The translations under genes were made by a program, and so were the position numbers. The notes beneath the pieces were generated by a model that ran no database searches, was not told the DNA's origin, and saw nothing but the letters and a program-made list of their open reading frames with translations. Positions 3,968 through 32,047 of a DNA stretch of 37,976 nucleotides are shown here, in pieces (positions within the stretch are counted from its first letter, which is position 1; each line of letters starts with the position of its first letter). The DNA is from Armatimonadota bacterium (lineage in GTDB: Bacteria > Armatimonadota > Hebobacteria > GCA-020354555 > CP070648): the NCBI GenBank assembly GCA_020354555.1, contig CP070648.1, positions 4,527,524 to 4,565,499 of the forward strand, in the 5' to 3' direction.

Positions 3968-5035
3968 GTGCGAGTATATCAATTCATCACGCCCTCTCAG
4001 ATCGGCGGCGCCGAGGTGCACGTGCTGACCTTGTCGCGCAAGCTCATTGAGCGCGGCCACCGGGTGACCGTCGTCTGCCCGCGCGGCCGCGCGCTGACGC
4101 AGGAGCTGCGCCAGCGGGGGTTCGACGTGTGGGCGCCGCGGACGACCGGCAAGCTCGACCCGGTGACACTCCAGCGCCTCGCAGGGCGCCTGCGGCGCGA
4201 CCGGGCGGACGTGCTGCACACGCATCTGTCAACCGCGAGTCTCATCGGCAGCTTTGCCGCCCGGCTCGCCGGCGTGCCGGCCGTGGCCACCGTGCATGGG
4301 CTCAACAGCCGCACCTGCTTCATGCACGCGCGGCGGATCATCGCCGTGTCGCACGCCGTGCGCCGGCACCTGGCTGCGCAGAGCGTCCCCGGGGAGCGCA
4401 TCAGCGTCATCTACAACGGCATCGAGTTGGCGCGCTATCGGGATGCGCCCGATCCGCGGCTGCAGCGCGCCGTGCTGGGGGTCGTGGACGGCGAAATGCT
4501 GATCGGGGCCGTCGGCCGCCTGGGGCCGGAGAAGGGGCATTCCTACCTCATCGAGGCCGCGGCCATTCTGGTGCAGCGCGAATCCCTGCCCGTGCGCATG
4601 GTCATCGTCGGCGGCGGCAAGAGCCGCCACGCGCTGGAGCAGGTGGCGCGGCGGTGCGGGGTCGCCGATCGCGTCATCTTCGCCGGGTTCCAGCGCGATG
4701 TCATGCCGTACGAATCCGCACTCGACGTATTCTGCCTGCCGTCGCTCAAGGAAGGGCTGTCGCTGTCCGCCCTGGAGGCGATGGCTCTCAGCAAGCCGGT
4801 GGTGGCGTCGCGAGTCGGGGGCACGCCGGAGGTTGTGGCCGACGGGGAAACCGGGCTGCTCGTGGAGCCGGCGAACCCGGCGGCATTGGCGCAGGCGTTG
4901 TCCGAGCTGATCCGCGACCCGCAGCGCGCGCGGGCCATGGGTCAGGCCGGTCGTGCGCGCGTCGAGCGGCTGTTCGATCTCGAAACCGTGGTCGGGCAGA
5001 TCGAGGATGTGTATCGGGAGTTGGCGGGGGGATGA
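3968..5035 (+). CDS. Glycosyltransferase family 4 (GT-B fold)
   Basis: 355 residues from a GTG preceded by AAGG at six bases. The N-terminal Rossmann half opens with the GGAEVHVLTLSRKL signature typical of GT4 enzymes. The C-terminal half starts with a GRLGPEKGHSYLIEA block, then has the E-x7-E nucleotide-sugar binding motif in EGLSLSALEAM, followed by KPVVASRVGGTPEVV and GETGLLV. It is a retaining transferase that moves a sugar from a nucleotide donor to a glycan or lipid acceptor on the cytoplasmic membrane face. Donor and acceptor cannot be read from the sequence. The adjacent deacetylase fits an exopolysaccharide or lipid-glycan role. It is the last gene before an 855-base non-coding stretch. 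Confidence 0.9.
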   Translation: MRVYQFITPSQIGGAEVHVLTLSRKLIERGHRVTVVCPRGRALTQELRQRGFDVWAPRTTGKLDPVTLQRLAGRLRRDRADVLHTHLSTASLIGSFAARLAGVPAVATVHGLNSRTCFMHARRIIAVSHAVRRHLAAQSVPGERISVIYNGIELARYRDAPDPRLQRAVLGVVDGEMLIGAVGRLGPEKGHSYLIEAAAILVQRESLPVRMVIVGGGKSRHALEQVARRCGVADRVIFAGFQRDVMPYESALDVFCLPSLKEGLSLSALEAMALSKPVVASRVGGTPEVVADGETGLLVEPANPAALAQALSELIRDPQRARAMGQAGRARVERLFDLETVVGQIEDVYRELAGG

Positions 5036-5204
5036 CCTCGGAGCTCTGAGCCTGCGGGGCATGCGCGGTGAGTGCGAGAGGGTACCGGCGCGGATTCCGG
5101 CCCGGCGCGCCGCGCACTGGCCGGGCGCACGGAACCCAGTGGGGCGAACGGGGTCGTCTTTCTCGGGCGTTTCCCGGTTTCCCCCGTGCCCTGTCTTCCC
5201 CCGC

Positions 5205-5364
5205 CCGGAGAAATGGTGAGGCCGCAGGCTGTGCGGGCGTGCCTGCGGCCTCTCGGTGGGGGCTGGGTGGCGGGTCAGGTTCCTAGGTATTCAGTTGCCT
5301 GGCCGCGGGGCGAACGGTCGCCTGAGCGCCGCCGTGCCCGCGGTCACGGCTCCCTGTCAGGATC
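5205..5364 (-). ncRNA. Candidate small RNA
   Basis: A minus-strand transcript starting about 5364, seven bases after a near-consensus sigma-70 promoter, would contain three small hairpins. These are GCCGTG/CACGGC at 5350-5331, GGCGA/TCGCC near 5322-5308, and a looser CAGG/CCTG stem near 5300-5274. It would then contain a 12-base perfect hairpin at 5252-5218 followed by ACCATTTCTCC, which could end transcription. The short transcript carries no convincing reading frame, and leftward genes lie on the opposite strand. It does not match the conserved cores of SRP RNA, RNase P RNA or tmRNA. Identity is unknown. Confidence 0.4.
5218..5252. terminator. 12-bp perfect hairpin, possible bidirectional terminator
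   Basis: GAGGCCGCAGGC (5218-5229) and its exact complement GCCTGCGGCCTC (5241-5252) flank an 11-base loop. On the minus strand it is followed by ACCATTTCTCC, a weak U-containing tail. On the plus strand no T-tract follows. It could end the candidate small RNA and also the glycosyltransferase transcript. Confidence 0.45.
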
Positions 5365-5370
5365 GCCGGG

Positions 5371-5399
5371 AGTATAGCAGGAATCGCGCGGGGTGTCAA
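5371..5399 (-). promoter_or_regulatory. Near-consensus sigma-70 promoter
   Basis: Read on the minus strand, TTGACA (5399-5394) is a perfect -35 box. It is separated by exactly 17 bases from TATACT (5376-5371), a five-of-six -10 box. No minus-strand protein gene lies within reach, so the promoter points to an RNA gene. Confidence 0.6.
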
Positions 5400-5890
5400 G
5401 GTTGACGGGGGTTCGTCTTGGAGCCGCTCAAGGTGATTGTCGCCCCTGAGAAAGGCACTGCGCGTGCGGATTCGCATCTCCAAATCCTGTGGACCTGCCA
5501 CCGAAAAGCGCTTGCGCTACATTCTGCGCACCCCGGGCCGATACCCACTCCGAGCACCGGCGGAGGATCCGACGCCGCAGAGTCCAGCCCAGCCGGGAAG
5601 GAAGTGCTCGTCTTTGTCTCATCTCTACGCCCATTGGCATCGCTCAATCCGAGCTGACTGCTCGTCGCCACCGGTCGCTCTGTCGCTCCTCGATCGGGCA
5701 GCGCTCCGTACGAGCGCACACGAGGTGTTGCCGCTCGATCCGCAGAAGCAACGCAACGAAATCCGGATCGCAAGAGGCCGGTGGCTTCAGCGTCGGTGCG
5801 AGCACTGCCGAGAGAGGCTCAACGGATCCCGCCGACCTGCGCTCGACGACGCACAAAGGTCATCCGGCAGAACTGCTTGCAGAGGAACCC

Positions 5891-8278
5891 GTGTTGCGAA
5901 CCATTCAGGTGTCGAAGCCGGCGTTTGCCTTGTGCCTTTGCGCCTTGGTGGTCTTCGGCAACACTTCGAGGAGCCAGCCATTGAGTAATCCCAATCCGAT
6001 GATTCGTCTCACCCAGCCGGCGGCGCGGTGGCTCGACGCATTCCCCATCGGCAACGGTCGCCTCGGCGCCATGGTCTTCGGCGGAGCGCCGACCGAACGC
6101 CTCGCCCTCAACCACGAGAACTTGTGGCGTGGGAAGACCCGATATCGCACGACGGAACCAAAGCACCAGCACCTCGCCGAAATCCGCGGCCTGTTTTTCG
6201 AGGGCAAACTGATCGAAGCCGCCGACCTCGCCGTGCGCCATCTCAGCGGACACGAGCGGCGCGTCCAGCCCTATCAACCCGTCGGCGATCTCACCCTCGA
6301 CATGCCGGGCCACGATTCGGTGTCCGACTACACCCGCATGCTCGACCTCGCCGACGGCATAGCGCACGTCGCCTACGAATGCGGCGGCGCATCGTGGCAG
6401 CGCTCCTACTTCGTCTCCGCGCCGCACCAGGCGATTATCGCCCGGCTGACCTGCGACCAACCGGCGGGCATCACCGCCCAGGTCGCCCTCAGCCGCGTGG
6501 ATGACCCGGAATGCACCCTCACCCCGTGGGCTGAGGAGGATATCTGCGGCTTCGTCGGGCGCTTTGAGGAAGGCATCGAGTTCGTCGCGGCGCTGCGTGC
6601 GATACCCCGCAGCGGGAGAATCGTCCCTGCGGCGGACGGCGGCGCCGCGCTGCACGTCGAGGGCGCGGACGAGCTGCTTGTCCTCGCGGTCGCGGATGTC
6701 TCCTGGGATGGGCCGGTGGATCGCGCCGGGTGCATTGCGCGGCTCGCCGCTCTTCCCGCGGATTGGGAGACCCTCCGCGCCGCCCACGTCGCCGAGCACC
6801 GCACTCTCTTCGATCGCGTCGGCCTGGAGTTGCACGGCCCCTCGTCAGCCGACACCGCCGACCCGACCGACGAACGCGTTCAGGCGATGAAGGGCGGGGA
6901 GGCGGATCCGGATCTCATTGCGCTGTATTTCCAGTTCGGCCGCTACCTTCTCATGGCGAGTTCCCGCTCATGCGACCAGCCGGCCAACCTCCAGGGCATC
7001 TGGAACGAGCAGCTCGCGCCGCCCTGGGATTGCGATCTCCACCACGACGTCAACATCGAGATGAACTACTGGCCCGCGGAGGTGGCCAATCTCGGGGAGT
7101 GCACGCGGCCCTTCCTGAGCTACCTGGAGCGCGCGCTGCCCGAGGGGCGCAAGGCGGCGCGCGACCTCTATGGCTGCCGCGGCATCTGCCTACCCATCCA
7201 GACCGATGTCTGGGACCGCGCCACGCCGGAGGCCCCGTGCTATGACGTGTGGACCGGCGCCGCGGCCTGGCTGGCACAGCACATGTGGTGGCACTACGAG
7301 TACACGCAGGACGCCGACTTTCTGCGCGAGCGCGCCTACCCGTTCATTCGAGAGGTCACGGCGTTCTACGAGGACTACCTGGTGCCCGACAAACAGGGGC
7401 GGCTCGTGACCGTGCCCTCGCAGTCGCCGGAGAACCGGTTCGTCGGCGGCTCGTCGCCGGTCAGCCTGGGCATCGCGGCGACGATGGACCTGGAGCTGAT
7501 CCACGAGGTCATGACCCACGCCATCACCGCGAGCGAGGTCCTGGGCTGCGATGCGGCGGAGAGGGAGCGCTTGCAGCGGCTACTACGCGACCTGGCGCCG
7601 CTACAGATCGGCCGCCACGGCCAGCTTCAGGAATGGCTCGAGGACTACGAGGAACACGAGCCCGGCCACCGACACTTGTCGCATCTCTACGCCGTGTTCC
7701 CCGGAGACCAGATCACGCCGGAAACGCCGGGGATGTGGAAGGCGGCCCGCGTGTCGCTCGAGCGGCGGCTGGCGGCGGGCGGCGGACACACCGGCTGGAG
7801 CCGCGCATGGGTCGCGGCGCTGTGGGCTCGGTTCGGGGAAGGCGACCTCGCCCGCGAGCACATGGAGCATCTCATCACGGACTTCGCCACCCGCAGCCTG
7901 CTCGATCTGCATCCGCCGGAGATCTTCCAGATTGACGGCAACTTCGGCGGCGCGGCGGCGATTGCGGAGATGCTCCTTCAGAGCCACGGCGGGGTGATTC
8001 GCCTGCTGCCGGCGCTGCCTTCCGCCTGGCCCAACGGTCGTGTCAGCGGTCTGCGCGCCCGCGGCGGATTCGAGGTGGATATCGCCTGGGCCGACGGCCG
8101 GCTCACCTCGGCAGCGATCACCAGCCTTGCGGGGCGATCCTGCACGGTGGCGGCAGGCGGCACGAATCCGATCGTGACGCACGACGGGCAACCGGTTACA
8201 GCGACACGCGACAAGGCAGGGCGCGTGCAATGGCCGACGGCGGCTGGCGAGCGCTATCAAATCGCCCCGGGGAGGTAG
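5891..8278 (+). CDS. Secreted GH95 alpha-L-fucosidase-like enzyme
   Basis: 795 residues from a GTG four bases after AGAGGA; longer upstream starts lack family sequence. A signal peptide ([15 protein letters not shown] core) precedes [22 protein letters not shown]-type sequence at the start of the GH95 N-terminal beta domain. The (alpha/alpha)6 catalytic barrel contains [12 protein letters not shown] (D386, N388). E514 in SQSPENRF is the probable acid, and D682 in QIDGNFGG the probable carboxylate of the inverting machinery. A C-terminal beta domain follows. The family hydrolyses alpha-1,2-L-fucosyl, and in some members L-galactosyl, linkages. In characterised enzymes an N-x-N pair polarises the base; here the first position seems to be Asp386. 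A GH29 enzyme lies 99 bases downstream, so the pair probably defucosylates a glycan outside the cell. Confidence 0.92.
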
Positions 8279-18798: not shown

Positions 18799-19293
18799 CC
18801 CTCATCTCCTCTCAGGACGGCCGCATCCATCGGCGCGGCCTCCCACGCCCGAACAACCACACGACCGGGCCGCGCGCTGAGCCGCCACGAGACGCCGGGC
18901 ACTCCACGGTGTCGCAATCATAGAGTCTCGCGTGTTACCGCAGCGCGGGTAATACGCGTAGACTCTTCCGGACGAGGTTCGTTTGGGAGGTGCCCCGCCG
19001 TCTCTTGCGTCCTTCCCTAATACACGCATCTCGATAACTGCGACACCATCTCTGTTTCTCCTCTTGCCCTCGCCCTCCCTCGCCCGTCCCCACGCCGCCG
19101 AGAAGATTGCGTCGCGCTCGGGCAGCCTGGGTCGAGCGAAAAGAGCCGCGCCCAGCGGCTCGGCCGCTGTCGCAACGTCGCCGTGCTGGGTCTCTTGGCC
19201 GGGCGATTGGTCGAATCCTTGGCGCCGCCGCGCTCAACCGTGAGTTGTCTGCGAGACGCGTTGTCGTTGATCACGCACGTGTGGGAGAGGAAG
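18799..19293. other. Divergent 495-base intergenic stretch
   Basis: It separates the minus-strand two-component genes from the plus-strand E1-like gene. It holds the 45-base inverted repeat at 18922-18966 and, overlapping its edge, a possible minus-strand -10 box TATGAT (18922-18917) without a clear -35 box. The plus-strand half ends with the strong ribosome binding site GGGAGAGG at 19283-19290. No small protein gene was convincing. Confidence 0.5.
18922..18966. repeat. 45-base imperfect inverted repeat
   Basis: Left arm: AGAGTCT, then CGCGT, G, TTACC. Right arm: GGTAA, T, ACGCG, a bulged T, then AGACTCT. Eighteen pairs form, including one G-T, around an eight-base centre (GCAGCGCG). No T-tract follows on either strand, so it is not an ordinary terminator. 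Its position upstream of the response-regulator gene suggests a regulator binding site or structured leader. Confidence 0.6.
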
Positions 19294-32021: not shown

Positions 32022-32047
32022 CGGCCCCGGGGCATATCCCGGGGCCG
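32022..32047 (-). terminator. Rho-independent terminator of the cold-shock gene
   Basis: CGGCCCCGGG (32022-32031) and CCCGGGGCCG (32038-32047) form a perfect 10-bp stem around GCATAT. On the minus strand the stem is followed by TTTCATTTC, giving the U-rich tail. It lies 32 bases after the cold-shock stop codon. Confidence 0.85.

Follow-up and report, generated by a model that had tools for sequence, protein, structure and literature searches.

The DNA analyzed here, a stretch of 37,976 nucleotides referred to below as the window, carries between a GT4 glycosyltransferase gene and a GH95 family gene a strong promoter-like sequence directed to the minus strand. Since both neighboring genes run in the plus direction, it may be asked what is transcribed from this site. 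An earlier note proposed a small RNA gene of a family that it did not recognize, on account of a promoter serving no protein gene, a terminator-like end and the lack of a coding frame. These three elements withstand the present analysis; the promoter is indeed an orphan, but nothing points to a new structured family, so that the proposal is only partly supported. We consider it reasonably likely that positions 5399-5203 of the minus strand form an independent small RNA gene, driven by a sigma70-type promoter, intrinsically terminated, untranslated and presumably acting by base pairing. The features involved are collected in Table 1.

Table 1. Features of the GT4-GH95 region and hairpins used for comparison (window positions unless another locus is named).
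Feature	Position	Strand	Remarks
-35 hexamer TTGACA	5394-5399	minus	from the sequence
-10 hexamer TATACT	5371-5376	minus	TGC just before (extended -10); spacer 17 nt
Predicted non-coding transcript, ~160 nt	5203-5364	minus	start near G5364, end in TTTCT tail ~5203-5211; deduced from promoter and terminator
C-rich linker, mostly unpaired	5253-5282	minus	candidate pairing region, from unpaired probabilities
Perfect hairpin, stem 12 bp, loop 11 nt	5218-5252	minus	terminator-like end of the predicted transcript
Weak U tail ACCATTTCTCC	5207-5217	minus	after the hairpin; compare TTTCT-like tails elsewhere in the genome
GT4 glycosyltransferase, convergent neighbor	3968-5035	plus	Pfam
GH95 family enzyme	5891-8278	plus	Pfam; mechanical frame start 5489
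Comparison hairpin	L076 3455-3487		tail TTTCTTG
Comparison hairpin	L078 12593-12623		minus-side tail CGTCGTTTCTG
Comparison hairpin	L075 1806-1837		minus-side tail CCTCTTTCTGC
Comparison hairpin	L080 5215-5242		minus-side tail TTCTGCG
Comparison hairpin	window 32022-32047		minus-side tail TTTCATTTC

The promoter and its calibration across the genome

The minus-strand promoter at 5399-5371 matches the consensus at 11 of 12 positions and has a TG ahead of the -10 hexamer. It is the top-scoring sigma70-type site of the window, as previously noted for this TTGACA-17-TATACT sequence, the next ones reaching 10/12 and 9/12. The exact motif TTGACA-N16-18-TATACT was searched in the whole 4.88-Mb genome and in a reversed control. 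It was found 21 times, against no occurrence in the control and about 0.11 copies expected from base composition, which corresponds to an enrichment of approximately 200-fold. Each of the 20 other copies lies at the start of a gene on the same strand or immediately ahead of it. Judging by sequence, these genes presumably include dnaK, groES, rpoB, ffh, infC, fur and lipA, together with what we take to be genes for a serine acetyltransferase, a response regulator, a TetR-type regulator, an ABC transporter ATPase and an export protein. One copy precedes a tRNA-Ser gene (ARAGORN). The copy of the window is the sole one of the 21 without such a gene, in agreement with the idea that it drives no protein gene. 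It is almost certain that an exact site of this type marks a gene start in this genome.

Less perfect sites were counted in 438 kb of the genome, a sample that also served for the hairpin statistics given below. This sample contains 19 sites matching at 10 or more of the 12 positions: 14 upstream of genes, two intragenic and three without a called gene. Among the latter three, one belongs to ftsZ, located behind a masked stretch, another is the promoter at 5399-5371, and the remaining site is weak (10/12). The ftsZ site (L074, 2482, minus strand) had the appearance of a second orphan promoter and was discarded, the gene call being interrupted by the masked stretch. Within the sample, the site at 5399-5371 is alone in being a strong orphan, and no other orphan has a T-rich-tailed hairpin downstream. 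The candidate unit has its own promoter, and this promoter serves no protein gene.

The terminator-like hairpin

The perfect 12-bp hairpin described previously is present, starts about 118 bases downstream of the promoter and is unique in the genome. The terminator segment is much more stable than shuffled sequences (z -4.8). Lying within the 40-500 bp downstream of the promoter where an intrinsic terminator would be expected, this strong hairpin is followed by a U tail (ACCATTTCTCC) that is real but weak, as the earlier note had it; the tail falls short of the "5 T in 8" rule and resembles other tails of the genome. In the 438-kb sample, perfect hairpins of at least 12 bp occur about once per 30 kb and mostly between genes, against about once in 400 kb of Markov-simulated sequence. 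Several of the long intergenic hairpins carry short TTTCT-like tails on the side that fits termination of the neighboring gene, and other long hairpins have no such tail (see Table 1 for examples of tails). Since the 6S RNA gene of this genome has a much better U tail than the hairpin at 5218-5252, weak tails are common but not universal here.

The orientation of the tail is informative. It belongs to the minus strand, which has no protein gene to end here, the two neighboring genes being on the plus strand, so that a minus-strand transcript from the gap would be implied. Tail orientation may thus be counted as independent support for such a transcript, and the transcription unit as a whole appears well supported at the sequence level.

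Pairing of a promoter with a terminator is a criterion used in published screens for small RNAs (PMC2573895), and about 40% of the high-scoring predictions of one such tool were estimated to be genuine (PMC2916834). Because both signals could be calibrated against the genome itself, the reading as a small RNA gene is strengthened, which raises our estimate for this gene above the published rate.

Elsewhere in the genome, L075 (5500-8300) contains a GC-rich hairpin in two identical copies (CCGGCCCGCCCGAGATGCGCTTCGGGCGGGCCGG, at 5718 and 7038), in a row of co-directional units with common TTTACA-TATAAT promoters at 5570, 6890 and 8220 (minus strand), spaced by about 1.3 kb. This row is possibly a tandemly duplicated gene family.

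Coding potential and folding of the predicted transcript

Between the promoter and the hairpin, the longest frame starting with ATG, GTG or TTG has only 18 codons. Longer overlapping frames, whichever strand they are on, match nothing in Pfam and do not display the third-position GC bias typical of genes in this genome. The earlier statement that the unit contains no protein-coding frame therefore holds.

The predicted RNA (162 nt) folds with a z-score of -2.1 as compared with dinucleotide shuffles, and this value is due to the terminator. The stability of the 112 nt ahead of the terminator does not exceed that of such shuffles (z -0.50); the first 84 nt alone reach z -1.9. The three small hairpins that had been drawn in this region are consequently less well supported, and they give no evidence of selected structure since the body folds like shuffled sequence.

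Search for homologues and known RNA families

An Rfam search of the candidate region, which had been suggested in the earlier note, returned nothing relevant to the unit, either at the gathering threshold or with E-values up to 10. No homologue of the unit was detected by DNA search in the 291 genomes of the phylum, and no match was found in phage and plasmid collections. DNA searches in 101 relatives and in all 291 genomes gave only short GC-rich matches; those that were checked lie in coding frames. Matches attributed to chance on this ground are a second one in the genome itself, one in G001 and a weak one in G255 (from the 291-genome search). With neither a homologue nor an Rfam model match, and with a body that folds like shuffled sequence, the unit gives no support to a conserved structured RNA and no evidence of a new family of this kind.

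The unit can nevertheless be compared with known systems. It is similar to 6S RNA (RF00013) in length and, likewise, in being a free-standing gene. However, the unit has no match to the RF00013 model and the genome has its own 6S RNA at another place (97.6 bits). A tRNA gene also comes to mind, the same exact promoter type driving tRNA-Ser in this genome and a serine-type tRNA following GT4 in three relatives (see below), but ARAGORN and Rfam detect no tRNA at the locus itself. The closest likeness is with the intergenic small RNA sets of Sinorhizobium meliloti and Salmonella (PMC2573895, PMC2916834), with which the candidate shares a free-standing promoter, a terminator-like end, a size of 100-200 nt, the lack of a frame and an intergenic position. 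It differs from them in being known from sequence alone, in lacking conservation in the relatives compared and in having a weaker U tail.

The locus in related genomes

The true start of the GH95 gene is likely to be the GTG at 5891 rather than 5489. This GTG is preceded by AGAGGA and followed by a signal-peptide-like N-terminus, and the GH95 Pfam domains begin at amino acid 173 of the 5489 frame, that is, at about 6005. With this start, the real GT4-GH95 gap likely extends from 5036 to 5890.

For comparison within the family, a single further genome (G001) is available. Its GT4 orthologue is 73% identical and is directly followed by a convergent minus-strand gene containing TPR motifs, the end of which overlaps the end of GT4. 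There is no gap in G001, and the alignment of homologous gaps proposed in the earlier note finds no counterpart in this genome. For the TPR-containing gene, no orthologue was found in the genome studied here, which gives only weak TPR-level matches. In L055, L057 and L058, which belong to a different family of the class, inspection by eye shows GT4 directly followed by a serine-type tRNA sequence that has its own promoter. A scan of genome contigs with GT4 returned only distant glycosyltransferases. With a TPR gene after GT4 in G001 and a tRNA in three other relatives, the downstream side of GT4 is a site of gene turnover. The earlier note held that absence of the promoter from close relatives would speak against an RNA gene, and at the level of the family such an absence is observed in G001. 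We take it as indicating a lineage-specific gene rather than as disproving the gene. At the resolution of the genomes compared, the unit is specific to this lineage.

Possible mode of action and alternative explanations

Taken as a whole, the candidate is probably a small RNA gene of an ordinary kind, present only in this lineage. The housekeeping sigma70-type promoter would start transcription near 5364, the GC-rich 12-bp hairpin with its short U tail would end it near 5203-5211, and the product would be an untranslated RNA some 160 nt long. Such an RNA would most likely act by base pairing. C-rich unpaired regions can pair with ribosome-binding sites. It can be proposed that the unpaired C-rich linker recognizes G-rich ribosome-binding sites in trans, and/or that the RNA, being its perfect antisense, pairs with any plus-strand read-through mRNA from GT4, a gene for which no plus-oriented terminator is seen here. 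A genome-wide search for 20-nt sites complementary to the linker with at most three mismatches returned only the gene itself.

The main rival explanation, which we regard as unlikely, is that promoter and terminator are relics of a minus-strand gene lost or replaced upon arrival of the GH95/GH29 block, the residual transcript being functionless. The absence of sequence conservation, the TPR-containing gene found at this place in G001 and missing here, and the tRNA of the three other relatives, which points to turnover, would all fit such a history. Unused signals would decay, however, and here the hairpin is perfect and 11 of the 12 promoter positions are intact; furthermore, with a convergent gene overlapping the end of GT4 as in G001, the terminator would not sit in such a gap. 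Alternatively, the promoter and the convergent transcript could matter only in cis, by blocking or processing read-through of the GT4 operon through interference or antisense pairing, with an RNA inactive in trans. The convergent arrangement with GT4 and the failure to find a plus-oriented terminator between 5036 and 5400 are consistent with this role, but collision with the GT4 gene itself would be limited by an efficient terminator ahead of it, and we hold the proposal to be improbable.

Translation of a short peptide is considered very improbable. The best case for a tiny mRNA is the 18-codon GTG frame at 5347 (VTAGTAALRRPFAPRPGN), with GGGAG just ahead of the GTG; yet only 2 nt separate this motif from the start codon, there is no ATG start and no homologues were found by which conservation could be judged. 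A more elaborate version of the small RNA proposal, to which we give the least credence, is a regulatory RNA restricted to the species or genus and belonging to no described family, which would couple the surface-polysaccharide operon (GT4, deacetylase) to the adjacent GH95/GH29 glycan-degradation genes.

A dispersed double-hairpin repeat

The window also contains, at about 18920-19036 (plus strand), one copy of a double-hairpin repeat, about 120 bp long and dispersed in the genome, other copies of which are found in L090-L119. It has the form TATAGAGTCTCG...GTAATACACGTAGACTCTTCCGGACGAGGTTCGT...ACGAACCTCGATA. At least 36 copies are present in the genome (at most one mismatch in an 18-base core; none in the control), and none was found in the 13 other genomes of the class. 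The copies are almost all intergenic; among the 28 with both neighbors called, 12 are flanked by divergent genes and none by a convergent pair. Changes in the first stem affect both sides together (GTGTATTACC/GGTAATACAC vs. GGGTATTACC/GGTAATGCCC), and some copies (L096, L107, L112) begin directly after a TATACT -10 box. Two copies (L019, L029) searched against Rfam up to E = 1 gave no match. The repeat resembles an element of the REPIN/MITE type or a mobile 5'-leader structure, and it may deserve more attention than the small RNA candidate.

Implications

If transcribed, the unit would add one more lineage-specific small RNA to those of a class of bacteria that is poorly sampled. Of wider use would be the calibration of the promoter motif: orphan copies of the exact motif may offer a clean route to RNA genes where homologues are missing.
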